Positions 30,598-60,060 of a stretch of DNA of 64,000 nucleotides are shown in pieces. Origin of the DNA: Novakomyces olei (lineage: Eukaryota > Ascomycota > Novakomycetes > Novakomycetales > Novakomycetaceae); assembly GCA_016906335.1 (NCBI GenBank), contig JADEYG010000001.1:186001-250000 (forward strand), written 5' to 3'. The notes beneath the pieces are model-generated. The model saw only the letters and a list, made by a program, of their open reading frames with translations, made no database searches and was not told the origin of the DNA. The first letter of the stretch is position 1; each line of letters begins with the position of its first letter. Both the position numbers and the translations under genes were made by a program.

Positions 30598-31516
30598 TGC
30601 GAAAAAATCTTCACTCTGAATCATATGGCTCTTTAGCAAAAGCAGCAACGTTGCCAAAAATAGCATTCATTGTTCGGTTATGATTAATTTTCATTTTCAA
30701 GAGGACCAAAATCGCAGATTAACAAGCGCAGAGTAACAAGCGAGCATACAATGCTTTTAGTTTCGCCTTCTGCTTTCTGGATATCCATCGATATCTGAAT
30801 TTGGCTCAGCTTGTACTAATATCTTTGTTTCAAAGCCTCATTTTAGAAACAGAAATACAAGAGCAAACCAAATAAACAAGCACAAGAAAGAAGATAGAAA
30901 AACCATTATTTCTAACGATTTCTAGTTTTTAGTGCCTTCAGAGTAACCAGAAATCGCTCTCTCCAGAAAAGTTGGCCAGTTTGCAACTTTTCTAGTGAGA
31001 GGGGTGTTTGGTTACAACACTCCCCGGCCAGCGATGATCGACAGTCACCGCTGACCTACCTTGTATATTTAAAAGAAACAAATCAACAAAGAAACAAAAT
31101 CGTGAAGAACAATCCAAAACAAAAAACAAAAAAAAAAAACACAGATGAAAGTACCGCATGCACAAGGCTAGAAGCACGGGATTTAAAAAAGAGCAAATCT
31201 TTAGAAGTAAAATAAGAACTGAAACCAAAAAAAAAATAAAAAAAATAAAAAAAAATAATAAAATAAAGTAACAACACAACGCCAGAGCAAAAATTGCGTT
31301 TTTATGAACTGTAGTTTGCCTGAATTTGTTTTTGACTTTCGTTGAAGTAATTGTTTTTGTTGTCTTTCGATGTGTGAGATTTTTGTCTTTTTTCTACAGG
31401 CATTATCTTTTTTTATTCGTCGTTTATTTAACAAAAAAGAAATATGCCCATTTCGCCGCCTTTAAGCATCGAACCCAAGCATCCGCATGATCACGAGAGA
31501 GCAATTTGTTGGATTT
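30598..31516 (+). repeat. Block A1 (outer left copy)
   Basis: About 0.92 kb, matching 59120-60060 in inverted orientation and, for its inner 0.7 kb (from 30811), matching 32086-32880 directly. It contains a conserved hairpin near 30965-30993 and a word CATCGAACCCAAGCATCCGC shared with other copies. Confidence 0.85.
30957..31025. other. Conserved double hairpin in block A1
   Basis: AGAAAAGTTG at 30965-30974 pairs perfectly with CAACTTTTCT at 30984-30993 around a 9-nt loop, and flanking CTCTC/GAGAG extends the stem. A second dyad follows at once: GGGGTGTT (31001-31008) against AACACTCCCC (31016-31025). The same pair occurs at 32237 and, inverted, at about 59640-59700. Confidence 0.75.
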
Positions 31517-32085
31517 TTGGATTTTTGGATTTTTGTATTTTTGTATTTTTGGATTTTTGTATTTTTGTATTTTTGTATTTTTGGATTTTTGTATTTTTGT
31601 ATTTTTGTATTTTTGTATTTTTGTATTTTTGTATTTTTGTATTTTTGTATTTTTGTATTTTTGTATTTTTGTATTTTTGTATTTTTGTATTTTTGTATTT
31701 TTGTATTTTTGTATTTTTGTATTTTTGTATTTTTGTATTTTTGTATTTTTGTATTTTTGTATTTTTGTATTTTTGGATTTTTGTATTTTTGTATTTTTGT
31801 ATTTTTGTATTTTTGTATTTTTGTATTTTTGTATTTTTGTATTTTTGTATTTTTGTATTTTTGTATTTTTGTATTTTTGTATTTTTGTATTTTTGTATTT
31901 TTGTATTTTTGTATTTTTGTATTTTTGTTATTTTTGTATTTTTGTATTTTTGTATTTTTGTATTTTTGTATTTTTGTATTTTTGTATTTTTGTATTTTTG
32001 TATTTTTGTATTTTTGTATTTTTGTATTTTTGTATTTTTGTATTTTTGTATTTTTGTATTTTTGTATTTTTGTATTTTTGTATTT
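31510..32085 (+). repeat. TATTTTTG octamer satellite
   Basis: About 70 tandem copies of the 8-bp unit TATTTTTG, with a few GATTTTTG variants near the left edge and in the middle and one TTATTTTTG slip near 31930. It translates in every frame, hence long repetitive FCIFVFLY-type frames that are not genes. It sits exactly between blocks A1 and A2. Confidence 0.95.
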
Positions 32086-32880
32086 CTTGTACTAATATCT
32101 TTCAAAGCCTGATTTCAGAATTAGAAATACAAGAGCAAACCAAATAAACAAGCACAAGAAAAAACATAGAAAAACCATTATTTCTAACGATTTCTAGTTT
32201 TTAGTGTCATCAGATTAACCAAAAATCACTCTCTCCAGAAAAGTTGGCCAGTTTGCAACTTTTCTAGTGAGAGGGGTGTTTGGTTACAACACTCCCCGGC
32301 CAGCGATGATCGACAAATGTCACCGCTGACCTACCTTGTATATTTAAAAGAAACAAATCAACAAAGAAACAAAATCGTGAAGAACAATCCAAAACAAAAA
32401 ACAAAAAAAAAACACAGATGAAAGTACCACATGCACAAGGCTAGAAGCACGGGATTTAAAAAAGAGCAAATCTTTAGAAGTAAAATAAGAACTGAAACAA
32501 AAAAAAAAATAAAAAACAAAAAAACAAAAAAACAAAAAAACAAAAAAACAAAAAAACAAAAAAACAAAAAAACAAAAAAACAAATAAACAAAAAAACATA
32601 AAAACAAAAAAAAACACACACACACAACGACAGAGAAACAAAAATGCACTTTTATGAACTGCATTTTGCCTGAATTTGTTTTTGAATTTCGTTGAAGTAA
32701 TTGTTTTGTTGTCTCTCGATGTGCGTGATTTTCGTCTTTTTTCTACAGGCATTATCCCTTTTTTTTGTCTTTTTATTAAAAAAAGAAACATACCAATTGC
32801 GCCGCGTGAAACGACAATGGCATCGAAGCCGAGCATCCGCATGATCTCGAGAAAACAATTTGTTAAACAAAACCTCTTGG
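32086..32880 (+). repeat. Block A2 (direct duplicate of inner block A1)
   Basis: Direct repeat of 30811-31516 with the same hairpin (stem 32237-32246) and the same end word at about 32818. It carries its own octamer expansion, AAAAAACA, at about 32510-32600, absent from A1. Confidence 0.85.
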
Positions 32881-33475
32881 CGCTTTTATATTGGTAATTC
32901 AGACATTCAGTTCTTTTTCTTGTAAAATCAGACAGACAATCGTTGCTTTTTGTTGCTTTTCTTTTTTCTTTTTTCTTTTTCCTATTTTGTTTATTTTTGT
33001 TTATTTTTAGTTTTTGTTTTGATTTGTAGACCAGACATTCAGTTTTGTTTTTGTTTTTGTTCTCGTAAAAACAGACCCGCTTTTTTTTTTGGGTTTGTTA
33101 TTCAGACATTTGATTTTTTATTTTTTTATTATTTTTTGTGTTTTAGTTTATTTTAGTTTCATTAATCAGACAGATTTTTGTTTTTGTTGGTTTTTTTTTT
33201 GTTTTTTTTTGTTTTGTTTCTTATTTTGCGTTCTCGGTTTGTTATGCTATTCAGAAAATCTGAATTTTGTTTTGTTTTTTTTTTGTTTTTTTTTGTTTTG
33301 TTGATTTTGTTGATTTTGTTGGGTTATATTTGTTTTTTTTGTCTTTTGTTCGTTTTTTGCATTTTTGCATTTTTTCTATGCTATTTCTTTTTGACTTTTT
33401 GAAATTCTGGTCCCCCTGTTCCCTTTAGTTTTATTTCTTTTTTTTTGCGTCTTTATTCTTATGTTTTTTGCTTAT
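32881..33475 (+). other. T-rich spacer with CAGACATTCAG words
   Basis: Simple T-rich DNA dominated by TTTTTGTT. It contains repeated ATTCAGACATT/CAGACA words (about 32899, 33031, 33101) that recur inverted on the right side at about 58852, 59003 and 59083, and a GTTGATTTT run of 2-3 units at about 33300 that is hugely expanded on the right. Confidence 0.6.
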
Positions 33476-36400
33476 TTGCCTCTTTGCCTCTTTGCCTATT
33501 TGCTTCTTTGCTTCTTTGCTTCTTTGCTTCTTTGCTTATTTGCTTATTTGCTTCTTTGCTTCTTTGCTTCTTTGCTTCTTTGCTTCTTTGCTTCTTTGCT
33601 TCTTTGCTTCTTTGCTTCTTTGCTTCTTTGCTCCTTTGCTTCTTTGCTTTTTTGCTTCTTTGCTTTTTAGCTCCTTTGCTTTTATAGTTTTTTTCTTTCT
33701 TTGCTCTTCTGCTTGTTTGCTTTTTTGCTTTTATTGCTTTTTAGCTTCTTTGTTATTTTGCTTTTTTGCTTTTTTGCTTTTTTGCTTCTTTCTTTGCTAT
33801 TTCATTTTGGTTCTTTGTGTTTTTGGTCCCCCTGTTCCCTTCAGTTTAAGTTCTATTTTTTTGCTTCTTAGCTTTTTTGATTCTTTGCTTTTTTGCTAAT
33901 CTTCTTTTTTGCTCCTTTGCTTTCTTTGCTTTTTTGCTTTCTTTGCTCTTTGCTTCTTTGTTATTTTGCAATTTTGCATTGCTTTTTTGCTTTTTTGCTT
34001 TTTTGCTATTTTGCATTGCTATTTTGCTTCTTTGCTTTTTTGTTATTTTGCATTGCTTTTTTGCTTTTTTGCTTTTATTGCTTTTTAGCTTCTTTGTTAT
34101 TTTGCAATTTTGCATTGCTTTTTCGCTTCTTTGCTTTTTTGCTATTTTGCATTGCTTTTTTGCTTCTTTGTTATTTTGCTTCTTTGTTATTTTGCTTTTT
34201 TTCTTTCTTTGCTCTTCTGCTTTTTTGCTTTTTTACTTTTTTTCTTTTGTCGCTTCTTTGCTTTTTTGATTTTTTGGTTTTGCTTTTTTTGCTTTGCTTT
34301 TTTTTTTGCAATACCCTTCTTTGCTTTTTTGCTTCTTTGCTTTTCTGCTTGATTGCTTGATTGCTTTTTTGGTTCTTTCTTTGCTATTTCATTTTGGTTC
34401 TTTGTGTTTTTGGTCCCCCTGTTCCCTTTATGTTTTAGTTCTTCTTTTTGCTTCTTTGCTTTTTTGCTTTTTAGATTCTTTGCTTCTTTGTTATTTTGCT
34501 TCTTTGTTATTTTGCTTTTTTGCTTTTCAGCTTCTTTGCTATTTTGCATTGCTTTTTTGGTTCTTTGCTTTTTTGCTAATCTTCTTTTTTGCTCCTTTGC
34601 TTTTATAGTTTTTTGCTTTCTTTGCTTTTTTGCTTTTCAGCTTCTTTGCAATATTGCTTCTTTGCTTCTTTGCTAATCTTCTTTTTTGCTCCTTTGCTTT
34701 TATAGTTTTTTTCTTTCTTTGCTCCTTTGCTTTCTTTTCTTTTTTGCTTTTTTGCTTTTATTGCTTTTTAGCTTCTTTGTTATTTTGCTTCTTTGTTATT
34801 TTGCAATTTTGCATTGCTTTTTTGCTCCTTTGCTTTTTTGCTCCTTTGTTATTTTGCTTTTCAGCTTCTTTGCTATTTTGCATTGCTTTTTTGGTTCTTT
34901 GCTTTTTTGCTAATCTTCTTTTTTGCTCCTTTGCTTTTATAGTTTTTTTCTTTTTTTGCTCCTTTGCTTTCTTTGCTTTTTTGCTTTCTTTGCTCTTTGC
35001 TTCTTTGTTATTTTGCAATTTTGCATTGCTTTTTTGCTTTTTTGCTTTTTTGCTTTTTTGCTTTTTTGCTTTTTTGCTTTTTTGCTTTTTTGCAATATTG
35101 CTTTTTTGCTTTTTTGCAATATTGCTTCTTTGCTTTTATAGTTTTTTGCTTTCTTTGCTCTTTGGCTTCTTTACTTCTTTGCTTTCTTTTCTTTTTTGCT
35201 TTTTTGCTTTTATTGCTTTTTAGCTTCTTTGTTATTTTGCTTCTTTGTTATTTTGCTTTTCAGCTTCTTTGCTATTTTGCATTGCTTTTTTGGTTCTTTG
35301 CTTTTTTGCTAATCTTCTTTTTTGCTCCTTTGCTTTTATAGTTTTTTTCTTCCTTTCCTCCTTTGCTTTCTTTGCTTTTTTGCTTTTTTGCTAATCTTCT
35401 TTTTTGCTCCTTTGCTTTTATAGTTTTTTGCCTTCTTTGCTCTTTGGCTTCTTTACTTCTTTGCTTTCTTTTCTTTTTTGCTTTTTTGCTTTTATTGCTT
35501 TTTAGCTTCTTTGTTATTTTGCTTCTTTGTTATTTTGCAATTTTGCATTGCTTTTTCGCTTTTTTGCTTTTTTGCTTTTTTGCTTTTTTGCTTTTTTGCT
35601 TTTTTGCTAATCTTCTTTTTTGCTTCTTTGCTTTTATAGTTTTTTGCTTTCTTTGCTCTTTGGCTTCTTTGCGTCTTTGCTTTCTTTTCATTTTTGCTTT
35701 TTTGCTTTTTTGCTTTTTTGCTTTCTTTGCTCTTTGCTTCTTTGTTATTTTGCAATTTTGCATTGCTTTTTTGCTTTTTTGCTTTTTTGCTTTTTTGCTT
35801 TTTTGCTTTTTTGCTTTTTTGCAATATTGCTTTTTTGCTTTTTTGCTCTTTGGCTTCTTTGCGTCTTTTCTTTCTTTTCATTTTTGCTTTTTTGCTTTTT
35901 TGCTTTCTTTGCTCTTTGCGTCTTTGTTATTTTGCAATTTTGCATTGCTTTTTTGCTTCTTTGTTTTTTTGCTATTTTGCATTGCTTTTTTGCTTCTTTG
36001 CTTTTTTGTTATTTTGTATTGCTTTTTTGCTTTTTTGCTTTCTTTGCTCTTTGCGTCTTTGTTATTTTGCAATTTTGCATTGCTTTATTGCTTCTTTGCT
36101 TTTTTGCTATTTTGCATTGCTTTTTTGCTTCTTTGCTTTTTTGTTATTTTGTATTGCTTTTTTGCTTTTTTGCTTTTTTGCTTTCTTTGCTCTTTGCGTC
36201 TTTGTTATTTTGCAATTTTGCATTGCTTTTTTGCTTCTTTGCTTTTTTGCTATTTTGCATTGCTTTTTTGCTTCTTTGCTTTTTTGTTATTTTGTATTGC
36301 TTTTTTGCTTTTTTGCTTTTTTGCTTTCTTTGCTCTTTGCGTCTTTGTTATTTTGCAATTTTGCATTGCTTTTTTGCTTCTTTGCTTTTTTGCTATTTTG

Positions 36401-37450
36401 CATTGCTTTTTTGCTTCTTTGCTTTTTTGTTATTTTGTATTGCTTTTTTGCTTTTTTGCTTTTTTGCTAATCTTCTTTTTTGCTCCTTTGCTTTTATAGT
36501 TTTTTGCTTTCTTTGCTTTTTTGCTTTTCAGCTTCTTTGCTATTTTGCATTGCTTTTTTGGTTCTTTGCTTTTTTGCTAATCTTCTTTTTGGCTCCTTTG
36601 CTTTTATAGTTTTTTGCTTTCTTTGCTTTTTTGCTTTTCAGCTTCTTTGCAATATTGCAATATTGCTTCTTTGCTAATCTTCTTTTTTGCTCCTTTGCTT
36701 TTATAGTTTTTTTCTTTCTTTGCTCCTTTGCTTTCTTTTCTTTTTTGCTTTTTTGCTTTTTTGCTTTTTTGCTTTTTTGCTTTTTTGCTTTTTTGCTTTT
36801 TTGCTTTTTTGCTTTTTTGCAATATTGCTTCTTTGCTAATCTTCTTTTTTGCTCCTTTGCTTTTATAGTTTTTTTCTTTCTTTGCTCCTTTGCTTTCTTT
36901 GCTTTTTTGCTTTTTTGCTAATCTTCTTTTTTGCTCCTTTGCTTTTATAGTTTTTTGCTTTCTTTGCTCTTTGGCTTCTTTACTTCTTTGCTTTCTTTTC
37001 TTTTTTGCTTTTTTGCTTTTTTGCTTTTTTGCTTTTTTGCTTTTTTGCTTTTTTGCTTTTTTGCTAATCTTCTTTTTTGCTTCTTTGCTTTTATAGTTTT
37101 TTGCTTTCTTTGCTCTTTGGCTTCTTTGCTTCTTTGCTTTCTTTTCTTTTTTGCTTTTTTGCTTTTATTGCTTTTTAGCTTCTTTGTTATTTTGCTTCTT
37201 TGTTGTTTTGCTTTTTTTCTTTCTTTGCTCTTCTGCTTGTTTGCTTGTTTGCTTTTTTGGTTCTTTCTTTGCTATTTCATTTTGGTTCTTTGTGTTTTTG
37301 GTCCCCCTGTCCCCTTTATGTTTTAGTTCTTCTTTTTGCTTCTTTGCTTTTTTGCTTTTCAGCTTCTTTGCTATTTTGCATTGCTTTTTTGGTTCTTTGC
37401 TTTTTTGCTAATCTTTTTTTTCGCTCCTTTGCTTTTATAGTTTTTTGCTT
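33476..37450 (+). repeat. GCTTTTTT/GCTTCTTT octamer satellite, left (4 kb)
   Basis: Tandem 8-bp units, mostly TTTTTTGC and TTCTTTGC, with higher-order words: TTATTTTGC, GCAATATT, CTTTTATAGTTTTTTGCTTT and GCTAATCTTC. A longer spacer with CATTTTGGTTCTTTGTG and GGTCCCCCTGTTCCC recurs at about 33788, 34365 and 37258. The T-rich strand is the plus strand. It is open in most frames and produces long Phe/Leu/Cys-rich or Lys-rich pseudo-proteins; none is a gene. Confidence 0.95.
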
Positions 37451-37914
37451 TCTTTGCTTTCTTTGCACTTTTTTATTTTTCCGCATTTTTGCGATTTCGT
37501 TTTGTCGCTTCTTTTGCTTTTTTAGCTTTCTTGTTTTTTTGTTTATATTGTTATATTGTTCTGTTGTTGTTTTTTTTGTGTTTTTTGTGTTTTGCCTTTT
37601 CGGCTTGATTTTTATATTCAGACATTCGTTGCTTTTTGTTTTTTTCTTCTATTTTTGTTAGTCATAGGAAACTTACCGTTTTGGTCGCTGCAAGGCAATG
37701 GCATCAAAGCCAGCATTCGCATGATTCTGATAAAAACCATCCTTGACCCAAACCTTTTGGTGTTCTTAAAAGACAAAGAGAGAAAGAAAGAAAGAAAGAA
37801 AGAAAGAAAACCAGCATATCATGGCACAATACACCATTTATCAGCTCGGTTGGCTTTGGTCAAGCCACAAATCGACAAAGCGACAAAAACCAAGCAAGCA
37901 AATCAAGCAACCAA

Positions 37915-38540
37915 TAGCAAAGCAGACTCATAACAGCGATTTCAAGGAGCCCAGTTTCTCAAATTTTCATGTAAGCAAGCATCATAGAGCCACCGACGGT
38001 AAGGTTGAAAACATGAACTAAGCAGACAAAACGTGGTCACGTGAGGCTATGGAGGTGAAACTAGCATGATTTAAATACACAGCATCATAGAGAGCACAGA
38101 TCCGATCAAAGAAACGAGAAACAAGCAAACAAAACTGTTAAGCAACCAGTAGCAAAGCAGACTCATAACAGCGATTTCAAGGAGCCCAGTTTCTCAAATT
38201 TTCATGTAAGCAAGCATCATAGAGCCACCGACGGTAAGGTTGAAAACATGAACTAAGCAGACAAAACGTGGTCACGAGAGGCTATGGAGGTGAAACTAGC
38301 ATGATTTAAATACACAGCATCATAGAGAGCACAGATCCGATCAAAGAAACGAGAAACAAGCAAACAAAACTGTTAAGCAACCAGTAGCAAAGCAGTCTCA
38401 TAACAGCGATTTCAAGGAGCCCAGTTTCTCAAATTTTCATGTAAGCAAGCATCATAGAGTCACGGTAAGGTCGAAAACATGAAATAAGCAGACAAAACGC
38501 GGTCACGTGAGGCTATGGAGGTGAAACTAGCATGAAATAC
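37915..38540 (+). repeat. 236-bp tandem repeat, about 3 copies
   Basis: Units start with AGCAAAGCAGACTCATAAC at 37915, 38151 and 38387, an exact 236-bp period; the third is partly deleted and truncated. Each unit ends in GAGGCTATGGAGGTGAAAC. Two of the three keep the palindrome TCACGTGA (38037, 38503); in the middle unit the site is changed. Confidence 0.9.
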
Positions 38541-39453
38541 ACAGCATCATATAGAACACTGATCAAACTAAAGGAACACCCGACAATTTGAGATAAAATG
38601 AAAAAGAGGCATAAAGGTAAAGAAAATTCAAAGTGATCAACGCGTAAAATAGTGAAAGAAAAAGAAAAAAACGCGTTCAGAAGTCGACTTTTACACACAG
38701 CCGTGAGTTAAAGACTTGAAGTAGAAAGAAAGATATTGAAAGCGTTTTATAGACGCGTCATGCTGTGAAACGCCCTCTTTAGAGTCGTGATAACTCGAGG
38801 TTATTGTGGCCCTCTGCTTTGTTTTTGGTCAGGAAGAAGTACGCGAAAGCAGCCGCTTTATATATTTTACGCCAGAGAGAAAACCCTTGACACATACGTG
38901 GTGGATAACGCGGTTTTCAAGAATACGTTTCCCGTTTCAGTCGTCATAGCAACGCTACCGTATAAGTGTCATAAGCCCTAAACCATGCTTTTCTGCCAAA
39001 TATCATCTGCCTAAGTTACGCTGGGGGCCGGGCCAATTCGGACTTTATTGTCTGTGGATGATGCAGATGGCACGAAGTATCAGGCCTCCAAAAGACAATA
39101 AGGCGGGAAAATTCCCGTCTGTTGGACACATATATCGTCGCTATACGATAGATTTGATTTCAACACATCTTTCTATATTATCTGCTGTCCAAAAAGTAGC
39201 AACACAAAATACGATAATCAAGTTTGTCCGCCTCTGTCCACCTGTTGCTTAGTACTCGACAATAAGTCTTTGCCCAAAATAATCAAATAAACAATCAATA
39301 CAATTAATTACGTCACGCGTCACGGGCTTAACATTGTAAACACCTTCTTACCTTCCGTTGCTCCGTAGTTGCTCCGTGGTTCGCCTCGACATCAAGAGCC
39401 AAGCATACATGCATAACTGAAGTCCCCAAAGCGTTCTGCATGTACGAGGCGCC

Positions 39454-39684
39454 TCAATGGATCGCATACTGCACATCTTCAAGCGCATTCAAGCAAATAA
39501 CGGGCTTTGTGTAATCTAGCCAAAAAGTAGCAATCCTGGAAGCCCAACGACTAAACAGGTACTCGTCCTGGGCCAGGTCAATGACGACGCCAGCACGGCC
39601 TCTCCATTGCATAGTGCCGCCCTTATTAAAAGTGCTGCTCAAATCAGTAGACACGTGCACTGCTTCAATGTTCGTTTGCAGCAT
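39454..39684 (-). other. Arm-B open frame, 76 codons, unknown
   Basis: Protein-like frame (TMQWRGRAGVVIDLAQDEYL, FSRWASRIATFWLDYTKP, VICLNALEDV) with an exact copy at 54749..54979. No family is recognised. It may be a fragment of an old gene or a coincidental frame. Confidence 0.35.
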
Positions 39685-40373
39685 ACAATCTAGAATTTCC
39701 GCTGGAATTTACGCTTTGTTCCAAGGGCGCATCCCAAAAAGCCCACATACAGGCGGCATAAAACCAGAACACTTACAGCAAGGTACAACACAAGACAGAA
39801 GAAAGAGAACAACCTGGTCTAGAAAGCAGTTTCAAGCCATTACCCTTCTAATCTATTCTTTGAGCGTGAAAAGCAAGCCAACTTCGTCGTCTATCTCTGT
39901 TACAAATCAGCAGTAATTGCATTGGTGTTCTGAAATCACGGCTTTCAAAAAAGAACAATTTCTGAATGCCTATGAGTACATTATTTTCGTTTATCTTCCG
40001 CGAGAGCCATTAGCAAAGCATATATATGTTGAATCGAGATTTTACAACAATGACGCTAAACGACATATACAATGTATATCCAGAAAGTCAACCGTATGTT
40101 ATTGTCAATGAAAATATATCAGAGCATTCAGCAAGCTACAACAAAAACAAAGCTTTCCTTCTGATTAAAGTAAAATTTTGATAACCATAACATCTTAAGA
40201 TTTCTTTTTGAAAATTTTCTCAAAAATCTGAAAACGTTCTGCAAATTCAAATATACCCAGGGGGCACGAAGACTGACTGTTGCGAAGTATTGCCCAATTA
40301 TAGCAAACAGCATTATAAAAGGCTAAATACAGGCCGAGAGTTTGAATCGGGACCTCAGTCAAACCAAGACCTT

Positions 40374-40728
40374 TCAAAGGTAAGAAAGTGACAACAGAAA
40401 AAGGACATTACTGGCAATAAATAGAGTTGAAAGCCTAGTATTTAGAACATTAAAAATGGCCGTGAAAATAAAAATATTGAGAAAAAAATGTTTGAAATTA
40501 AGAGAACACAGAAAACAAGTCAATAAGTTACGAGGAAGAGGTAATGTTTCATAGAGTAAGCATTTAGATAAGCTCAATTTAAGCCTGATATAACGTGGAG
40601 GCTCAAACTGAATCTTTGTGAAACTGCAAATATAAATTCGCGCCCGCAAATAACATTGACTCCTGAGACCAAAAACAATAAAAAGCAAAAATAGAAGCAT
40701 AATCAAAAAATGACAAAAAAAAACAGAA

Positions 40729-40759
<31 letters not shown>

Positions 40760-40808
40760 CAACTATAATGCAGTAATTGAGGCGGATAAGTTCTAGATGA
40801 AAAGACAT
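40374..40808 (-). other. Arm-B open frame, 144 codons, hydrophobic
   Basis: Opens with ATG, has a GSGSGSGSGS run from a (GGCTCT)n hexamer, then hydrophobic stretches (FLIMLLFLLFIVFGL, FFLNIFIFTAIF). The right-arm copy 53625..54059 is open with one Lys/Arg change. Arm identity alone can explain the conservation; there is no domain evidence. Confidence 0.3.
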
Positions 40809-48403: not shown

Positions 48404-48536
48404 TTCCCCAATGACTCGATGATGTCACTCTAAGCATTCAATAAAATTATGAAAGGAAGCCATAAATGACGACTCGAAGAACAAAGTCGTTTACAGATAA
48501 TCCTGCAAACTACGACAAAGATTTATTGTACGCATT

Positions 48537-49034: not shown

Positions 49035-49877
49035 CTATTTCTTCATAGTATCTGCCAAAACTGCTGTCTTGGCATCATTGATCAATCGATCTATGCCTTT
49101 CCCCGCTTCTGAATAAACCTTTTCCACATCTCTTTTAAAATCGTTCACTAGATTAGCGCTCACTTTTTTATTTTTAAGTGTGCTCCATGTCTTTTGTACA
49201 GCTTGTCGCTGGTTTCGCAGCCGTGTTCTTAATGTCTCGCCAAACTTTGCGATATCATTGGTTAAAGCAACTCTTGATTCTCTTGTAGGCACCGGGAGAG
49301 GAATGACCAGCCCATTTGGATTTGCAGGCATGGGCTGAGGATTGAATCCTGGTATCTCTGCCACGATTGTGCGGCTAATTGGTTTAACGTAATCAGGATC
49401 ATAGCATGCAAGCTGAATCCTTCGCCCATCCACAGCAGTTATTGACGCCAGAGTCGAAAAGGAATAGACTTTGTCGCCTTGCGGTAATTTAATTGAAAGT
49501 CGCTCCAGTGCTTCTGCCTTGGATGCTGTAGCATTGCGCATTCCTTGCAAATGTTTTTCTCCCTGCTTTAATAAATCATTTGCCTCTGACTCCAACATTT
49601 CCATATTTATGAGCGAGCCAAGATCTACCAGTTCACCCGATTCGTCATCTTCCTTGGTGCTGCTTCCATGTTTTTTCCCGCCCGAACCGCGCTTGTCGCT
49701 TTTTTTAGCGCATGGAGGGCTTATGTGGAGTAAGGCACAATTTGTCATTGAAGTAGAGCTCTCATTTGCCCATCGGAAATTATTTGAATTGTTTGTGTTC
49801 AGCACAGAAAGATTTGCGCCAGCCGGGCTTAGGCTCCTGCAATCTATGCGCAGAATCGGCCTCAGTCGCCTAATCAT
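49035..49877 (-). CDS. RRF1: Mitochondrial ribosome recycling factor
   Basis: 280-aa single-exon protein. The first about 60 residues are a mitochondrial presequence (MIRRLRPILRIDCRSLSPAG). Residues about 85-280 form the RRF domain: a long helix MLESEANDLLKQGEKHLQG, then ALERLSIKLP, a beta domain TLASITAVDGRRIQLACYDP and PNPNGLVIPLPVPTRESR, and the closing helices SANLVNDFKRDVEKVYSEAG and GIDRLINDAK. It splits post-termination ribosomes with EF-G2 in mitochondria (yeast Rrf1/Fil1). The start at 49877 is the only Met giving the presequence. Confidence 0.88.
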   Translation of the reverse strand: MIRRLRPILRIDCRSLSPAGANLSVLNTNNSNNFRWANESSTSMTNCALLHISPPCAKKSDKRGSGGKKHGSSTKEDDESGELVDLGSLINMEMLESEANDLLKQGEKHLQGMRNATASKAEALERLSIKLPQGDKVYSFSTLASITAVDGRRIQLACYDPDYVKPISRTIVAEIPGFNPQPMPANPNGLVIPLPVPTRESRVALTNDIAKFGETLRTRLRNQRQAVQKTWSTLKNKKVSANLVNDFKRDVEKVYSEAGKGIDRLINDAKTAVLADTMKK

Positions 49878-50201
49878 TTTGTGGGCTTCGAAGTTGATGA
49901 CAAAATTTAATGCACTACAGATTGTGTATTCTTTTTACCATAGTATTTTATTTTTTTATCTATTTTTTAATTATTATCATAAACTCGAATAATTATTTAA
50001 CAGCACCTTATAGCATTACCCTTAGGGTTACATCTCTGGCGAAATTGAGCAAGATAAGAGTCTAAACTATGGCAGATCAGAGATAGTAAAATAGTTTCTA
50101 GTAGTTCAAAGGAGTTTGCCGCATTTCATTCTCAAGACTATAAAATATAAGGCAATTTAGGCTAAGCTTTGTTAAAGCAAGCACGTTGTACTATTATTAA
50201 A
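49878..50201. other. Intergenic, RRF promoter side
   Basis: AT-rich. It contains the palindromic CCCTTAGGGTTA word at about 50019. No gene is seen. Confidence 0.5.
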
Positions 50202-50333
50202 CTATACGTGGTCTTTGATTCGACGGCGTTTTCCTTGTGAATGCGCCTTGGGCACCTGGCTTTCATCAAACACCAGACTATGTTTGCTCCGCTCACTATA
50301 AGGCGTTGTTAGCGAAAGGCTTGCAGGAGGCAT
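50202..50333 (-). CDS. Candidate 43-aa small protein
   Basis: ATG at 50333 and TAG at 50202. The frame reads MPPASLSLTTPYSERSKHSL, then VFDESQVPKAHSQGKRRRIK, ending DHV. It has a protein-like composition with a KRRRIK nuclear-localisation-like cluster. It lies about 100 bp downstream of the kinase stop on the same strand. It could be the last exon of a longer gene or an independent small gene; no family is recognised. Confidence 0.35.
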   Translation of the reverse strand: MPPASLSLTTPYSERSKHSLVFDESQVPKAHSQGKRRRIKDHV

Positions 50334-50437
50334 GAATAGTACTCATATAAATAAAAATACATGAAACGTTGAATGTGGATTTTAAAACATGAAAATAAAG
50401 ATAAAAACTCAAATTGTAACATGTATTTGAAGAAGAG

Positions 50438-51800
50438 CTAGTACTTCCTGGTTTTCGTTTCGTGCGAATTGAAATTGCGCGGAAGAAAATGCATTTCTTT
50501 GGGCAAGCATTCCACTGGACTCGCGCTAAAGTAAGTTGAGCGGAGTGCCTGCCCGGCTGTTATCCTCCGGCGCGGATCATATGTCAAAAAGGATTGTAAC
50601 AGATGTACAGCCGCTTCACCATAGGAGCGGAATTTCTTTTCCAAAAGGCTGCTTCGCCGGTTAAAGTTTAATTGTAAGGAACGGCTCCCTGGTAGTAAAT
50701 GAAACCCCGGCCAAATTCCCTCGTGGGGGGCACCAAGTAAAGATGCTATTAAATCAAACTCTTCCCGTTCATTGTCTCCTGGAAATAAAGGATTGCCGGT
50801 CAGTAGCTCCGCCATGGCACAGCCCAAACTCCACATATCGCAAGAACAATCGTACTGATCTGAATCAAGTAACAGTTCCGGCGATCGGTACCAAATTGTG
50901 ACGACGCGAGGCGTCATTCTTTCCTGACCTGCTGTGGGAAACGAACGCGCCATACCAAAATCCGCTAAGACATTTAGAGTCAGGACATTAAATAATTTAA
51001 ATTGCCAAAAATTGATTATGCCAAGAGATTAGAAAAGTCCGTACCAATCTTCAAAGTGCCGTCCATTGTTATTAAAAGGTTTGACATTTTTAAATCGCTA
51101 GAAAATAGTCAACAATACAAGAACAAGATGTACGGGAGAAAACTATACCGATGCACGACTTTATTTTCGTGCAGATATGCTGTACCCAGCAAAAGTTGCT
51201 TCAATAGACATTTTGCTGACGCTCAGTATACACACACAGTTTTCTTGTACCTTCTGAAGCTGTAAACCGGACACGTTCATCATCGAGCAACCGACCCAGA
51301 TCCTATCGGTTTAGTGCATGTGTGCATTCATGCATGACACATACCTGGTAACACCATTCCATAACAAGAGCAATTTCGTCAAGCGACCGGCCACACGCGA
51401 CTTGGGACACGTGCACGATATTCGGGTGTTTAAGAGAACGTAGCAATGAAACTTCCCGAATTGACGTCATAGATATGCCGTTACCACGGCTTTGATCGTG
51501 CGTAGGGATCCTCAGCGCCTTCAGAGCAATAACATTTCCCGATTTTTGCATACGCGCCCGGCTATTTCAGATTCAAAGATCAGAATTGGAATAGGAGTAA
51601 ACGAAATTACTAGACGACACCGTAGGCTAATTAATGCGAGTTTAGTAATTCAATCTAAATGATGTATGACTTTACGTACTGCCTTCGCCTACAACACGCT
51701 TGTCGTAAAAATCGGCGTCCAAATCCAGATTTCCGACTAGAATAGGCTGATCGGATAAGGCACGACGCTCTCCCGTAACAGAGACCATCGTTTGCGCCAT
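50438..51800 (-). CDS. Cyclin-dependent kinase, CDK10/CDK11-like
   Basis: Ser/Thr kinase, 350 aa in seven exons: 51680..51800, 51611..51626, 51345..51561, 51251..51302, 51149..51215, 51045..51097 and 50438..50964 (1053 nt). The Gly loop GEGTYGVVYRAR is rebuilt across a 16-nt microexon. Other motifs are IALKALRIP (ATP lysine), the PSTAIRE-position helix MTSIREVSLLRSLKHPNI, VMEWCYQDLGRLLDDER, HRDLKMSNLL (catalytic loop, completed across an intron), ADFGMARSF, and TIWYRSPELLL, CDMWSLGCAMAELL. The SMTSIRE helix and MEWCYQDL resemble fission yeast Ppk23 and CDK10/11 rather than cell-cycle CDK1. It probably acts in transcription or septation control; the cyclin partner is unknown. Confidence 0.92.
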
Positions 51801-51988
51801 CACATCAAGCGTATCCTTTACCAACGCCGTATTTCCTCCAGGATACACGTCCTCCCAATATACTGTATATTTTGCATACTTTATTGATATATGCGAGTTA
51901 TATTATATATATTAATAAGAAAAAAAAATAGATAGTTTTAAAATATCATTAGCATTATATAATATAGAGCTGCTGCTGCAAAGACGGT

Positions 51989-52602
51989 ATGGCAAAGACA
52001 CTTAGCGAGAACGTTGGCGAAACAGCAAAAGAGATTAGCGGGGACGATAGGAAAGTTTCGCTCAGTGACATATCTAGCTATAGCGATTTACAAAAAGCTT
52101 GGGCGCGTTCGCCACTTGGCGCGTGGGCTGCCGCCTCGACGTGTAAGTGTCTTGTGCAGTGCATACACGCTTTACGCTAAACTTTAAAGTATTTCTTGGT
52201 TTACCGCGCTCGTTGGTTCCGAGTCTACGTACACCAAGCCAGCCATCGTTTGCGTCTGCGCTTTGCTTTTCTGCAATTTTTGGAGGATCTGGGTAAGGTA
52301 GCGCTAGCTTGCTCACGGTTGTGCTAATGTGATTCTAAAGTTATTTGACGGCCACTGGAGGTAAGGCATGATTATCCATAGTGAAGACTTATGCCACAGA
52401 TTATGAAAATGGCTCAGGTCTAATGTCGGGTATGCCGTATTCTCGGTTTGAGCAACCGCTAATGTAGACAGCCTGGTCAGCGGCATACTTGCTCGTGCAC
52501 GGGAAAAGTGCCGTGAAAGCGTTGAAACCGGTCCCGTTAGCCATGGCGGCGTTAAGTGCGGCTAATGCGACGATGTACGGCCAAGACTACTTTGGATACT
52601 AG
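51989..52602 (+). CDS. AIM19: AIM19-like mitochondrial membrane protein
   Basis: 145 aa in five exons: 51989..52142, 52190..52292, 52341..52360, 52400..52429 and 52472..52602. Joined sequence: SDLQKAWARSPLGAWAAAST, LFLGLPRSLVP, SALCFSAIFGGSGYLTATGD, YENGSGLMSAWSAAYLLVHG, KPVPLAMAALSAANATMYGQ, DYFGY. The pattern (SPxxAW, then NGSGxxxAWSxxYL, then KPVPLAxAxLxxxNAxxYG) matches my recollection of the Aim19 family of small mitochondrial membrane proteins with unknown function. Exons of 20 and 30 nt are unusual but phase and family motif agree. A minimal-intron reading runs into stops. Confidence 0.8.
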
Positions 52603-52752
52603 GTGCGTTTCGTAGTTACGCCTTGGGCTGTATTGCCTGGAAGGAATGAATAATTATTTAATCAATTACCTTTTGAAGGGTTTGCTGTGCTCATAAACGG
52701 GAAAAGAAATAGAATAGCTCATCAATAGTAAATTACATAAAATGTCGTATGG

Positions 52753-53073
52753 TCATTGCTCTTTTTTCGCCGTGTCGTTGTCACTAGATTCAGTCATCGC
52801 CGCGTAAACCCAACCTCCTAAAACAATATTTGCCACCAACGCAGCAAATATAGCGGCATGCGTTGTCTGGTAAGCTAAGCTTGTCAGCAATCTTCACTTT
52901 TTGGAGTATCGAGAAATATTACGTTCAAACAATAGGGCTAAAGAAGCAAAATAGCATCCGATTGGTAAGACTATCATTGCAATCGTGAACGAGAAAACTT
53001 TGAAAAGAACAGAGGGCGGAACATTAATGCTTTGCCGTGTTTCCACACCGCTGTCTTTGGCCGTCGTATCCAT
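52753..53073 (-). CDS. VMA21: V-ATPase assembly factor Vma21
   Basis: 90 aa, two exons (52923..53073 and 52753..52874). Topology is a short acidic N-terminus, TM1 (VLFKVFSFTIAMIVLPIGCY), a short loop FEPYQTTHA and TM2 (AIFAALVANIVLGGWVYAAM), with a cytosolic tail ending KKEQ. The C-terminal di-lysine (KKxx) is the ER-retrieval signal of Vma21, which chaperones V0 assembly in the ER. The acceptor at 52875 was chosen because it keeps the phase. A TTG upstream (53106) is not used. It is the last gene of the island before the right arm. Confidence 0.88.
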
Positions 53074-53229
53074 TAGATCGAATATGAAACTCGACTCGAG
53101 CGCCAAAATACCGTTTGCCCCACGCGCAATATTTCAAATCTTTATGATGCGTCTTTTTGTATATACGAATATATATTGCTTGCCGGATTCTGACATGTAT
53201 TATTGTGCATTTATGATTTCCAGCGATTT

Positions 53230-53338
53230 ATGCTCTACAATATGAAATGTATTGGGAAATGCAAAGTAAATAAAGCCAGCGTGTCATTTGTATAGCAAGC
53301 TGTACAATTATATTTTACTATAGAAATTAATGAATATA

Positions 53339-53396
<58 letters not shown>
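53230..53396. repeat. Diverged inner edge of right arm with ATTT run
   Basis: An uninterrupted (AAAT)n of about 60 bp at 53338-53402, then diverged homology to 41050-41180 (about 70-80% by eye). Arm identity falls sharply across this microsatellite. Confidence 0.75.
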
Positions 53397-53401
<5 letters not shown>

Positions 53402-53673
53402 ATCCAAATCAACTTGCTTACTCGTGACGGATCCGCCGAGACTTTTGGCCCAAAGCCGTGCAAAGTCGCTCGTAGTTGACTTTTCCGCGGCATTTTCCCT
53501 CATACGTCAATGTTTTAAAAGATATCTTGCGACTTTGTGCAACACGTTAGAGAAGACATTCCAATGTGGCGCGGCAAATTGTGAACTTAAGGGTTAAGGT
53601 GCTCTAGGACTTGGCAAGATTGAAATGTCTTTTCATCTAGAACTTATCCGCCTCAATTACTGCATTATAGTTG

Positions 53674-53704
<31 letters not shown>

Positions 53705-56700
53705 TTCTGTTTTTTTTTGTCATTTTTTGATTATGCTTCTATTTTTGCTTTTTATTGTTTTTGGTCTCAGGAGTCAATGTTATTTGCGGGCGCGAATTTA
53801 TATTTGCAGTTTCACAAAGATTCAGTTTGAGCCTCCACGTTATATCAGGCTTAGATTGAGCTTATCTAAATGCTTACTCTATGAAACATTACCTCTTCCT
53901 CGTAACTTATTGACTTGTTTTCTGTGTTCTCTTAATTTCAAACATTTTTTTCTCAATATTTTTATTTTCACGGCCATTTTTAATGTTCTAAATACTAGGC
54001 TTTCAACTCTATTTATTGCCAGTAATGTCCTTTTTCTGTTGTCACTTTCTTACCTTTGAAAGGTCTTGGTTTGACTGAGGTCCCGATTCAAACTCTCGGC
54101 CTGTATTTAGCCTTTTATAATGCTGTTTGCTATAATTGGGCAATACTTCGCAACAGTCAGTCTTCGTGCCCCCTGGGTATATTTGAATTTGCAGAACGTT
54201 TTCAGATTTTTGAGAAAATTTTCAAAAAGAAATCTTAAGATGTTATGGTTATCAAAATTTTACTTTAATCAGAAGGAAAGCTTTGTTTTTGTTGTAGCTT
54301 GCTGAATGCTCTGATATATTTTCATTGACAATAACATACGGTTGACTTTCTGGATATACATTGTATATGTCGTTTAGCGTCATTGTTGTAAAATCTCGAT
54401 TCAACATATATATGCTTTGCTAATGGCTCTCGCGAAAGATAAGCGAAAATAATGTACTCATAGGCATTCAGAAATTGTTCTTTTTTGAAAGCCGTGATTT
54501 CAGAACACCAATGCAATTACTGCTGATTTGTAACAGAGATAGACGACGAAGTTGGCTTGCTTTTCACGCTCAAAGAATAGATTAGAAGGGTAATGGCTTG
54601 AAACTGCTTTCTAGACCAGGTTGTTCTCTTTCTTCTGTCTTGTGTTGTACCTTGCTGTAAGTGTTCTGGTTTTATGCCGCCTGTATGTGGGCTTTTTGGG
54701 ATGCGCCCTTGGAACAAAGCGTAAATTCCAGCGGAAATTCTAGATTGTATGCTGCAAACGAACATTGAAGCAGTGCACGTGTCTACTGATTTGAGCAGCA
54801 CTTTTAATAAGGGCGGCACTATGCAATGGAGAGGCCGTGCTGGCGTCGTCATTGACCTGGCCCAGGACGAGTACCTGTTTAGTCGTTGGGCTTCCAGGAT
54901 TGCTACTTTTTGGCTAGATTACACAAAGCCCGTTATTTGCTTGAATGCACTTGAAGATGTGCAGTATGCGATCCATTGAGGCGCCTCGTACATGCAGAAC
55001 GCTTTGGGGACTTCAGTTATGCATGTATGCTTGGCTCTTGATGTCGAGGCGAACCACGGAGCAACTACGGAGCAACGGAAGGTAAGAAGGTGTTTACAAT
55101 GTTAAGCCCGTGACGCGTGACGTAATTAATTGTATTGATTGTTTATTTGATTATTTTGGGCAAAGACTTATTGTCGAGTACTAAGCAACAGGTGGACAGA
55201 GGCGGACAAACTTGATTATCGTATTTTGTGTTGCTACTTTTTGGACAGCAGATAATATAGAAAGATGTGTTGAAATCAAATCTATCGTATAGCGACGATA
55301 TATGTGTCCAACAGACGGGAATTTTCCCGCCTTATTGTCTTTTGGAGGCCTGATACTTCGTGCCATCTGCATCATCCACAGACAATAAAGTCCGAATTGG
55401 CCCGGCCCCCAGCGTAACTTAGGCAGATGATATTTGGCAGAAAAGCATGGTTTAGGGCTTATGACACTTATACGGTAGCGTTGCTATGACGACTGAAACG
55501 GGAAACGTATTCTTGAAAACCGCGTTATCCACCACGTATGTGTCAAGGGTTTTCTCTCTGGCGTAAAATATATAAAGCGGCTGCTTTCGCGTACTTCTTC
55601 CTGACCAAAAACAAAGCAGAGGGCCACAATAACCTCGAGTTATCACGACTCTAAAGAGGGCGTTTCACAGCATGACGCGTCTATAAAACGCTTTCAATAT
55701 CTTTCTTTCTACTTCAAGTCTTTAACTCACGGCTGTGTGTAAAAGTCGACTTCTGAACGCGTTTTTTTCTTTTTCTTTCACTATTTTACGCGTTGATCAC
55801 TTTGAATTTTCTTTACCTTTATGCCTCTTTTTCATTTTATCTCAAATTGTCGGGTGTTCCTTTAGTTTGATCAGTGTTCTATATGATGCTGTGTATTTCA
55901 TGCTAGTTTCACCTCCATAGCCTCACGTGACCGCGTTTTGTCTGCTTATTTCATGTTTTCGACCTTACCGTGACTCTATGATGCTTGCTTACATGAAAAT
56001 TTGAGAAACTGGGCTCCTTGAAATCGCTGTTATGAGACTGCTTTGCTACTGGTTGCTTAACAGTTTTGTTTGCTTGTTTCTCGTTTCTTTGATCGGATCT
56101 GTGCTCTCTATGATGCTGTGTATTTAAATCATGCTAGTTTCACCTCCATAGCCTCACGTGACCACGTTTTGTCTGCTTAGTTCATGTTTTCAACCTTACC
56201 GTCGGTGGCTCTATGATGCTTGCTTACATGAAAATTTGAGAAACTGGGCTCCTTGAAATCGCTGTTATGAGTCTGCTTTGCTACTGGTTGCTTAACAGTT
56301 TTATTTGCTTGTTTCTCGTTTCTTTGATCGGATCTGTGCTCTCTATGATGCTGTGTATTTAAATCATGCTAGTTTCACCTCCATAGCCTCACGTGACCAC
56401 GTTTTGTCTGCTTAGTTCATGTTTTCAACCTTACCGTCGGTGGCTCTATGATGCTTGCTTACATGAAAATTTGAGAAACTGGGCTCCTTGAAATCGCTGT
56501 TATGAGTCTGCTTTGCTACTGGTTGCTTAACAGTTTTATTTGCTTGTTTCTCGTTTCTTTGATCGGATCTGTGCTCTCTATGATGCTGTGTATTTAAATC
56601 ATGCTAGTTTCACCTCCATAGCCTCACGTGACCACGTTTTGTCTGCTTAGTTCATGTTTTCAACCTTACCGTCGGTGGCTCTATGATGCTTGCTTACATG

Positions 56701-57205
56701 AAAATTTGAGAAACTGGGCTCCTTGAAATCGCTGTTATGAGTCTGCTTTGCTATTGGTTGCTTGATTTGCTTGCTTGGTTTTTGTCGCTTTGTCGATTTG
56801 TGGCTTGACCAAAGCCAACCGAGCTGATAAATGGTGTATTGTGCCATGATATGCTGGTTTTCTTTCTTTCTTTCTTTCTTTCTTTCTCTCTTTGTCTTTT
56901 AAGAACACCAAAAGGTTTGGGTCAAGGATGGTTTTTATCAGAATCATGCGAATGCTGGCTTTGATGCCATTGCCTTGCAGCGACCAAAACGGTAAGTTTC
57001 CTATGACTAACAAAAATAGAAGAAAAAAACAAAAAGCAACGAATGTCTGAATATAAAAATCAAGCCGAAAAGGCAAAACACAAAAAACACAAAAAAAACA
57101 ACAACAGAACAATATAACAATATAAACAAAAAAACAAGAAAGCTAAAAAAGCAAAAGAAGCGACAAAACGAAATCGCAAAAATGCGGAAAAATAAAAAAG
57201 TGCAA
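53397..57205 (-). repeat. Arm B, right copy
   Basis: Inverted, near-identical copy of 37470-41046, longer by about one 236-bp unit. It includes the frame copies 53625..54059 (+) and 54749..54979 (+), the tandem repeats and the TTTC microsatellite at about 56862-56888. Confidence 0.92.
55920..56760 (-). repeat. 236-bp tandem repeat, about 4 copies
   Basis: Unit boundaries at about 56038, 56274, 56510 and 56746 give a 236-bp period. Every unit keeps TCACGTGA (55923, 56154, 56389, 56624), unlike the left array. Confidence 0.9.
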
Positions 57206-58310
57206 AGAAAGCAAAGAAAGCAAAAAACTATAAAAGCAAAGGAGCGAAAAAGAAGATTAGCAAAAAAGCAAAGAACCAAAAAAGCAATGCAAAATAGCAA
57301 AGAAGCTGAAAAGCAAAAAAGCAAAGAAGCAAAATAACAAAGAAGCAAAATAACAAAGAAGCAAAATAACAAAGAAGCAAAATAACAAAGAAGCAAAGAA
57401 TCTAAAAAGCAAAAAAGCAAAGAAGCAAAAAGAAGAACTAAAACATAAAGGGAACAGGGGGACCAAAAACACAAAGAACCAAAATGAAATAGCAAAGAAA
57501 GAACCAAAAAAGCAAACAAGCAAACAAGCAGAAGAGCAAAGAAAGAAAAAAAGCAAAACAACAAAGAAGCAAAATAACAAAGAAGCTAAAAAGCAATAAA
57601 AGCAAAAAAGCAAAAAAGAAAAGAAAGCAAAGAAGCAAAGAAGCCAAAGAGCAAAGAAAGCAAAAAACTATAAAAGCAAAGAAGCAAAAAAGAAGATTAG
57701 CAAAAAAGCAAAAAAGCAAAAAAGCAAAAAAGCAAAAAAGCAAAAAAGCAAAAAAGCAAAAAAGCAAAAAAGCAAAAAAGCAAAAAAGCAAAAAAGCAAA
57801 AAAGCAGAAGAGCAAAGAAAGAAAAAAAGCAAAATAACAAAGAAGCTAAATAACAAAGAAGCTAAAAAGCAATAAAAGCAAAAAAGCAAAAAAGCAAACA
57901 AGCAGAAGAGCAAAGAAAGAAAAAAAGCAGAAGAGCAAAGAAAGAAAAAAAGCAAAAAAGCAAAAAAGCAGAAGAGCAAAGAAAGAAAAAAAGCAAAATA
58001 ACAAAGAAGCTAAATAACAAAGAAGCTAAAAAGCAATAAAAGCAAAAAAGCAAAAAAGCAAAAAAGCAAAAAAGCAATACAAAATAACAAAAAAGCAAAG
58101 AAGCAAAAAAGCAATGCAAAATAGCAAAAAAGCAAAAAAGCAAAAAAGCAAAAAAGCAAAAAAGCAAAAAAGCAAAAAAGCAAAAAAGCAAAAAAGCAAA
58201 AAAGCAAAAAAGCAAAAAAGCAAAAAAGCAAAAAAGCAAAAAAGCAAAAAAGCAAAAAAGCAAAAAAGCAAAAAAGCAAAGAAGCGACAAAAGAAAAAAA
58301 GTAAAGAAGC
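57206..58310 (-). repeat. GCTTTTTT satellite, right (1.1 kb)
   Basis: Reverse-complement counterpart of 33476-37450, about a quarter of its length. It includes runs of AAAAAGCA longer and purer than on the left (58130-58275) and the spacer containing GGGAACAGGGGGACC at about 57450. Confidence 0.95.
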
Positions 58311-59119
58311 GAAAAAGAGAAAAATCAAAGAAGTATAAAATAGAACTAAAACTAAAGGGAACACGGGGATTAAAAACACAAAGAACCAAAATGAAGTAGC
58401 AAAGAAAGAACCAAAAAGGTAAAAATGCAAAAAAAACTCTAACAAACTAAAAACTAGAAAACAAAGAAGAACAAAAAAAACAAAATCAACAAAATCAACA
58501 AAATCAACAAAATCAACAAAATCAACAAAATCATCAAAATCATCAAAATCATCAAAATCATCAAAATCAACAAAATCAACAAAATCATCAAAATCAACAA
58601 AATCAACAAAATCAACAAAATCAACAAAATCATCAAAATCGACAAAATCAACAAAATCAACAAAATCAACAAAATCAACAAAATCAACAAAATCATCAAA
58701 ATCATCAAAATCATCAAAATCATCAAAATCAACAAAATCAACAAAATCAACAAAATCAACAAAATCAACAAAATCGACAAAATCAACAAAATCAACAAAA
58801 TCAACAAAATCAACAAAATCAACAACAAAAAAAATAAAAACAAAGAAACCAGATTGTCTGAATAACAAAACAAAACCAAAACGCAAAAGTATAAACGAAA
58901 CAAAAAACCCAACAAAAACTAAAATTACTGAATTTCTTAATAAAGAAACTCAACTAAACTGAATTAAAATAAAATAAAACCAAAAGAAACAAAAACAACT
59001 GGATGTCTGATTTACAAAGCAAAATAAAAACCAAAAAATTAAAATAAAAACAAAAACAAAATTGAAAAGCAACAAAAGGTAACGAATGTCTGTCTGATTT
59101 TACAAGAGAAAGAACTGGA
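58311..59119 (-). repeat. AAAATCAAC satellite and A-rich spacer
   Basis: 58481-58824 is about 38 tandem 9-bp units (AAAATCAAC, with AAAATCATC and AAAATCGAC variants). On the left the same unit has only 2-3 copies near 33300. Around it lie A-rich spacers with TGTCTGAAT words. It encodes VDFVDF- or LLILLI-type frames that are not genes. Confidence 0.9.
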
Positions 59120-60060
59120 TGTCCGAATTACAAAAAAGTTACTGGGAGGTTTTGGTTAACAAATTGTTTTCTTGTGATCCTGCGGATGCTCGCTTCGATG
59201 CCATTCCTGTTTCAGGTGGCGAAATTGGTATGTTTTTTTTTATTAAAAAGACAAATAAAAAAGGATTATGCCTGTAGAAAAAAGACGAGAATCCCACACA
59301 TTGAAAGAACATTGCTTCAACGAAATCCAAAAACAAATTCAGGCAAACTACAGTTCGTAAAGACGCATTCTTTCGCTGGCGTTGTGTTGTTGTTTTATTT
59401 TGTTTTATTTTTTATTTTTAATTTTTAATTTTTGGTTTCAGTTCTTATTTTACTTCTTGAGATTTTTTTTTTTTAATCCCATGCTTCTAGCCTTGTGCAT
59501 ATGGTACTTCCAGCTGTGTTTTTTCTTTTTTTTTTTTTTGTTTTGGATTTTTCTTCACGATTTTGTTTCTTTGTTGATTTGTTTCTTTAAAATATACAAG
59601 GTAGGTCAGCGGTGACATTTGTCGATCATCGCTGGCCGGGGGAGTGTTGTAACCAAACACCCCTCTCACTAGAAAAGTTGCAAACTGGCCAACTTTTCTG
59701 GAGAGAGCGATTTTTGGTTACTCTGAAGGCACTAAAAACAAGAAATCGTTAGAAATAATGGTTTTTCTATCTTCTTTCTTGTGCTTGTTTATTTGGCTTG
59801 CTCTTGTATTTCTGTTTCTAAAATGGGCTTTGATACAAAGGTATTAGTGCAAGCTTAGCCAAATTCAGATATCGATGGATATCCAGAAAGCAGAAAGCTT
59901 AACTAAAAGCATTGTCTACTCGCTTGTTACTCTACGCTTGTTAATCTGCGATTTGGTCCTCTTGAAAATGAAAATTAATAACCGAGCAATGAATGCTATT
60001 TTTGGCAACGTTGCTGCTTTTGCTAAAGAGTCATATGACTCAGAGTGAAGATTTCTACGC
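59120..60060 (-). repeat. Block A, right copy
   Basis: Inverted match to 30598-31516 (and to 32086-32880). It has the hairpin AGAAAAGTTG/CAACTTTTCT at 59671-59699 and the CGCAGGATC end word near 59185. The palindrome ends at 60060 with GTAGAAATCTTCACTCTGA read inward. Confidence 0.88.

Follow-up and report, generated by a model that had tools for sequence, protein, structure and literature searches.

A 12.4-kb gene block between partly near-identical inverted arms in Novakomyces olei: a likely old inverted segmental duplication, probably pericentromeric

The flip/flop region of Saccharomyces chromosome XIV, a 24-kb region with 15 genes and 4.2-kb repeats, lies 28-58 kb from the centromere; its repeats carry sporulation genes (the Centroid family), and its inversion is documented in many strains (PMC9731477). 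The mechanism proposed there is gene conversion between the inverted arms with occasional crossovers; the repeats, which lie beside CEN14, stay identical, for which selection for identical copies was proposed, with the cause of homogenization left undetermined by the authors, and in that account the Centroid family is reported only from Saccharomycetaceae (PMC9731477). The inverted repeats of Schizosaccharomyces pombe centromeres also recombine, and crossovers are thought to invert the core between them (PMC10813616). Here, a structure of this general plan is described from Novakomyces olei, within a stretch of 64,000 nucleotides (C1:186001-250000, “the window”) on contig C1 of a single genome assembly (14,339,745 bases, 15 contigs); coordinates without a contig name are counted within the window. 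The published genome-wide GC content is 43.8% (PMC7912804); the window has 40.7% and 110 kb of other genome sequence 39.9%, both picked around AT-rich repeats. The structure is likely an inverted segmental duplication that is old and probably lies next to a centromere, its inner arms being near-identical through gene conversion between them.

Self-comparison of the window yields mirrored blocks that span 30597-60062, with a 12.4-kb core between them and a center of symmetry at about 47.2 kb. The order on both sides, inverted, is block A, satellites, a 235-bp tandem repeat and arm B. The inverted arms at 37905-41046 and 53387-56528 are 100% identical (rounded) over 3142 nt and lie 12340 nt apart; block A (30597-31510 vs. 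59158-60062) matches in inverted orientation at 88.7% identity over 928 columns. Given the length and identity of the arms, the mirror structure did not arise by chance; it is real, and the palindrome of block A, satellite and arm B that the initial annotation had placed around 47 kb is borne out by the inverted matches of block A and the arms and by the satellites on both sides. Its parts are as follows.

30597..31503, plus strand: left outer block A (copy A1), 88.7% identical, inverted, with 59158-60062; C4 match 94%
31504..32091, plus strand: left satellite 1, (ATTTTTGT)73
32086..33374 (right limit approximate), plus strand: second A-like copy (A2) of the left arm, present on C4 too
33464..37541, plus strand: left octamer satellite (TTTTTTGC)n, about 4.1 kb
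36993..41033, plus strand: left near-identical tract, comprising satellite end, junction, 235-bp tandem repeat (37905-38564) and arm B
41034..41172, plus strand: diverged remnant of left-right homology inside the tract edge, past an (ATTT)n microsatellite, from the three-way alignment
41034..53399: core between the arms, 12.4 kb, the block that would invert
53400..57771, minus strand: right near-identical tract, comprising arm B, 235-bp tandem repeat (55869-56763), junction and satellite edge
57127..58333, minus strand: right octamer satellite (CAAAAAAG)n
58470..58825, minus strand: right 9-mer satellite (AACAAAATC)n
59158..60062, minus strand: right outer block A, from the inverted match and the three-way alignment

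Because the left arm additionally contains the A-like copy A2 and a further satellite, the two arms do not simply mirror each other; the 235-bp tandem repeat counts 2.8 copies on the left and 3.8 on the right. The arms had been described as made of octamer satellites. Such satellites are indeed present, but the best-matching part of the arms is about 2.5 kb of ordinary sequence without recognizable genes, plus the 235-bp tandem repeat, and the satellites match poorly. The AT skew of the satellites is -0.77 to -0.85 on the left (33000-37000) and +0.86 and +0.74 on the right (57000-59000); on contig C7 it goes down to -0.98.

The outer and inner parts of the arms have diverged to different degrees. 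Left arm, right arm and a third copy on contig C4 were compared in a three-way alignment with 880 ungapped columns in block A and 2651 in arm B; left and right differ at 72/880 sites (8.2%) in block A, but at only 4/2651 (0.15%) in arm B (Fisher p 1.7e-39). This contrast implies that the left and right arm B were equalized long after the duplication arose. A faster-mutating block A explains only little of it, because the left arm and the C4 copy, compared over the same columns, differ at 47/880 sites in A and 94/2651 in B, an odds ratio of only 1.5 (p 0.022). In block A, 32, 57 and 13 changes are unique to the C4, right and left copies, respectively, plus 2 three-way differences; in arm B the corresponding numbers are 91, 1 and 3. 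With its outer arms diverged by 8%, the duplication is old, and the amplification intermediate that the initial annotation had considered is not upheld.

The near-identical part has sharp edges. Between left and right, the interval 37300-41033 contains 8 substitutions, and the length differences amount to 96 columns and one 235-bp unit; in the satellites beyond the tract, the left-right match falls to about 69-80% per 100 columns. On the inner side, diverged left-right homology extends about 0.1 kb farther toward the core than the tract edge, past the microsatellite; since the homology does not stop there, this edge has the look of a conversion-tract end and not of a duplication boundary. Together, these patterns point to recent homogenization of old arms along about 4 kb, for which gene conversion is the simplest account. 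A recent second duplication, in which a template switch copied only arm B across to the opposite side, would also restrict near-identity to about 4 kb, yet it is unlikely: the mirrored order runs outward via diverged satellites to block A and inward through the short diverged homology, and the insertion would need to land in register between old homologous flanks, just as conversion does. An assembly artefact, either a false hairpin or a product of polishing, is very unlikely. The published genome was assembled with Canu from PacBio reads and polished with Illumina reads (PMC7912804), and near-identical 4-kb arms are a place where polishing can homogenize; a false hairpin, on the other hand, would be identical throughout, whereas block A differs by 8% and the satellites by 20-30%, the arms differ by one 235-bp unit and the 96-column gap, and a third copy that is 3.5% different survived polishing.

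This third arm, at C4:733705-742953, has the left-arm form (A, satellite, A2, satellites, 235-bp repeat, B) and is unmirrored; the array type of left satellite 1 recurs within it, on the reverse strand, at C4:741265-741779. The C4 copy extends 0.25 kb farther outward than the arm and 1.8 kb into the core, including a methyltransferase gene. Since the methyltransferase copy on C4 (C4:733.7-735 kb) is frame-broken, whereas the C1 copy is open, the interchromosomal copy was likely made from C1 to C4. Divergence between the left arm and C4 is uneven, with 106/3060 sites (3.5%) over 38354-41474 and 16/1298 (1.2%) over 41532-42836; the intervening 41475-41531, where 20/50 columns differ, represents an alignment of rearranged sequence, not mutation.

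Long copies of A and B occur on C1 and C4 only. Elsewhere, arm B has a 53-bp match on C2, in addition to short pieces within the same loci, block A has three matches of 45-65 bp on C7, and the satellite end of the arm has three matches of 62-87 bp on C1, C12 and C7; the genome repeat search skips simple repeats, so that these counts are lower bounds. When up to 2 mismatches are allowed, a 24-mer of the left octamer satellite matches the genome 293 times in forward and 158 times in reverse orientation, against 0 for a backwards control, and the 100 places listed are all on C1 or C7; the octamer array is also found at C1:261.8-264.3 kb and C7:2421-2428 kb. A search of the remaining genome for arms and satellites, as the initial annotation had proposed, thus recovered a third arm copy on C4 and octamer arrays on C1 and C7. 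The octamer loci C1:260564-264787 and C7:2421158-2428860 are themselves related, at 80.7% over 3.7 kb including one flank, and both are adjoined by 52-bp tandem repeats; they represent another interchromosomal copy.

The distribution of copies also bears on a fold-back (Galileo-like) origin, suggested in the initial annotation; the locus would then be a transposon pair with satellite-rich long terminal inverted repeats. Long inverted arms containing tandem repeats fit this idea, but of all the alternatives weighed here it is the least probable. Arm B has three long copies and otherwise the short matches listed above, and its C4 copy sits in a larger duplicated segment together with the outer flank and a gene. 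Flanking direct matches are of five or six bases only: a 6-mer of A for the whole structure, none of at least 5 for the left unit, and a 5-mer for the right unit. None of the five open reading frames (ORFs) of arm B has a Pfam family above the cut-off; one has a low-complexity Serglycin match below it, and the other four have no Pfam family. Dispersed copies bounded by arms with target duplications, as in Galileo-like elements, were not found, and with three long copies of arm B and no convincing target duplication, a Galileo-like element is not supported. Rfam (E up to 0.1) gave no RNA gene in arm or core for 37400-53500.

The position of both loci was related to copia-type retrotransposons. 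A genome search for their reverse transcriptase (RVT_2) gave 59 matches, 52 of them over the cut-off, and on every one of the eight longest contigs at least two elements form an internal group:

C1, 268-294 kb
C2, 460-468 kb
C3, 1363-1391 kb
C4, 694-716 kb
C7, 1840-1848 kb
C9, 1172-1187 kb
C12, 52-60 kb
C15, 971-987 kb

These internal groups are taken as candidate centromeres on the basis of japonicus (PMC4600332) and of some budding yeasts, in which retrotransposon clusters are described as marking centromeres (PMC9731477); the C1 cluster may accordingly mark the centromere of its chromosome. The palindrome lies 22.0 kb from the first RVT_2 match of this cluster and 21.0 kb from its copia-like start, and the C4 arm lies 17.5 kb from the last match of the C4 cluster and 14.8 kb from its copia-like end. 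Both gaps are as small (22.0 and 14.8 kb) in 0.25% of random placements (clusters C1 268031-293830 and C4 693843-718949), a figure to be read in light of the post hoc choice of clusters. The proximity suggests that the arm sites on C1 and C4 may be pericentromeric. Inside the C1 cluster, C1:277304-279476 holds two tandem copia-type pieces, 99.7% identical over 293 residues. Telomere repeats are present at both ends of C1, C4 and C7, only the first bases having been examined in the other contigs; the repeat is mostly the 10-mer CCCTAACTAA (TTAGTTAGGG), with variants, and C11 and C12 start with AACCAACA-like arrays instead.

The core contains ordinary genes.

41548..42580, plus strand: methyltransferase gene, two open frames taken as two exons (intron inferred)
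42965..45007, plus strand: DUF2009 non-canonical E2 ubiquitin-conjugating enzyme gene (PF09418, 673 bits)
45573..47048, minus strand: glutamine synthetase gene, exons, limits approximate (PF00120 and PDB glutamine synthetases; first exon with a weak N-domain match)
49035..49934, minus strand: ribosome recycling factor gene (PF01765)
50438..51566, minus strand: protein kinase gene, exons, limits approximate (PF00069)
52894..53133, minus strand: VMA21-like exon (PF09446, 27.8 bits, below Pfam's cut-off of 29.5)

Ten further core ORFs include nine without a domain and one that is the first exon of glutamine synthetase, with its weak domain. Seven single-copy housekeeping genes had been proposed for the core: five genes score above Pfam's cut-off and can be named, the VMA21-like sixth scores below, and seven are not reached. 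Similarly, the single-copy status holds beyond the first 1.8 kb, where 42837-53386 has four short genome matches only (46 to 98 bp, three of them in the last ~125 bp); it fails for the first 1.8 kb, of which C4 has a second copy that includes the methyltransferase gene. A dispersed repeat of ~235 bp, distinct from the 235-bp tandem unit of the arms, lies at 41173-41408 on the left arm's inner edge and begins where left-right homology ends; among the 43 genome matches found for the core, 38 fall on this repeat (67-93% identity), which is possibly a short interspersed element or a solo long terminal repeat. The DUF2009 protein has Saitoella and Neolecta among its best hits (53-54% identity); no locus for it was confirmed in a bacterial and archaeal genome collection, which says nothing on fungi. 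Elsewhere in the genome, an isocitrate lyase (protein P0121, L028:3130-4887) is 85% identical to a protein on a public 8.9-kb environmental contig, which is read here as coming from an environmental relative of N. olei; the next best hits, including Saitoella, Savitreella and Neolecta, reach 63-65%. Near the start of the window, the minus strand carries a gene for U4 spliceosomal RNA at 74-218 (89.1 bits in Rfam).

The gene content of the core is relevant to two further explanations. In the first, the locus would be a relic of a former inverted-repeat centromere, as the initial annotation had considered, of the S. pombe plan and with genes that moved in later. A unique core, near-identical inverted and AT-rich repeats, and the vicinity of a candidate centromere speak for a relic; its probability is nevertheless very small, as the core has an ordinary GC content (42.9%) and open genes, and long A and B copies are confined to C1 and C4. 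A working inverted-repeat centromere is not supported either, because of the same open genes, where an S. pombe-type regional centromere has a core free of protein genes; the candidate centromere of this chromosome is the retrotransposon cluster 21-22 kb away. In the second, selection would maintain the arms of a programmed flip/flop switch, of mating type or otherwise, as in Ogataea and Komagataella, and inversion would change the expression of genes at the ends. Near-identical inverted arms by a likely centromere match the layout of such switches (PMC6692504), but a switch is highly improbable here: the genome has six HMG-box matches, all of them off C1, and those core ORFs that carry a domain are genes of other kinds. 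N. olei is described as primary homothallic, without profile matches to matPc, matPi, matMc or matMi; a relaxed search placed an HMG box beside ste11, srm1 and rps20 (PMC7912804), none of which was seen in the core. An alpha-box search of the genome gave no match; it has little weight, since the controls gave none either.

The preferred explanation, an inverted segmental duplication with converted inner arms, starts from what the assembly contains, two inverted A-satellite-B segments separated by 12.4 kb, plus another copy elsewhere that includes a neighboring gene. The inner 4 kb would have been overwritten by non-allelic homologous recombination (gene conversion), with the microsatellite as the inner and diverged satellite as the outer limit of the tract. 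A minority of these events would be crossovers that invert the 12.4-kb gene block, and both orientations are expected in the species. The interchromosomal copy would have been made from C1 to C4; if both sites are pericentromeric, which is the weaker part of the argument, centromere clustering would favor such exchange. No selected function is needed, and the core genes would be passengers.

Several observations weigh against this explanation or parts of it. Inversion was not observed in the one assembly of one strain, and the C4 copy, in which the left outer flank is joined to the methyltransferase side as on C1 now, records the same orientation at two time points, with no sign of flipping. 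Of the four options raised in the initial annotation, an inversion hotspot is the best supported, by near-identical 4-kb inverted arms, but inversion itself was not seen; that the core may flip is a prediction from these arms. The uneven left-C4 divergence gave no direction for left-right conversion, and suggests that exchange between C1 and C4 may have occurred too. Short-read polishing could have erased a few real differences between the arms, even though the 3.5% difference of C4 remained. As for the centromeres, the clusters were chosen after being seen; lone RVT_2 hits occur on most long contigs (e.g., C1 at 107, 338 and 1074 kb), a further group on C2, at 24-75 kb, is subtelomeric, and the C7 and C12 groups consist of two elements each. 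C12 also has a split hit at 434 kb and a start without telomere repeats, and the satellite locus of C7, at 2421 kb, lies a long way from that contig's group (1840-1848 kb).

The PubMed Central literature searched yielded no account of such a structure, which does not show that none exists; the main text of PMC7912804 contains no occurrence of centromer-, inverted, satellite or telomer-. The view that no described element has such a plan nevertheless gives way, since the Saccharomyces chromosome XIV flip/flop region is nearly alike (PMC9731477) and appears to be the closest known system. In both, a pair of inverted repeats roughly 4 kb long (4.2 there, 4.0-4.4 here), near-identical and homogenized, as seen here within one genome, encloses ordinary genes, 15 there and at least five here; the distance is 28-58 kb to the centromere there and 22-51 kb to a candidate centromere here; the enclosed genes of N. 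olei are single-copy, with the reservation that the methyltransferase also has a decayed copy on C4. The N. olei arms differ from those of Saccharomyces in having no recognizable gene, octamer-satellite edges, a 235-bp tandem repeat and a third copy; inversion is documented there and predicted here. The S. pombe centromeres resemble the N. olei locus in their inverted repeats around a core, with inversion by crossover thought to occur there, yet their core is a centromere and that of N. olei a gene block. In the mating-type flip/flop of Ogataea and Komagataella, inverted repeats likewise flank an invertible block with one end near a centromere or telomere (PMC6692504); in contrast, HMG-box searching revealed no mating-type gene in the N. 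olei core. It is possible, and proposed only tentatively, that this kind of region arose a second time, independently, in a lineage distant from Saccharomyces: a gene block in a pericentromere, flipped again and again because its satellite-flanked arms, in which no gene is recognizable, are kept identical. If the arms carry no genes, their homogenization needs no selection on gene products, which bears on how such regions persist; finding such a region deep in the Taphrinomycotina, its arms lacking any recognizable gene, would make recombination and position, not gene function, the likelier cause. The C4 copy further suggests that satellite-bearing blocks can move between likely pericentromeres along with a neighboring gene.

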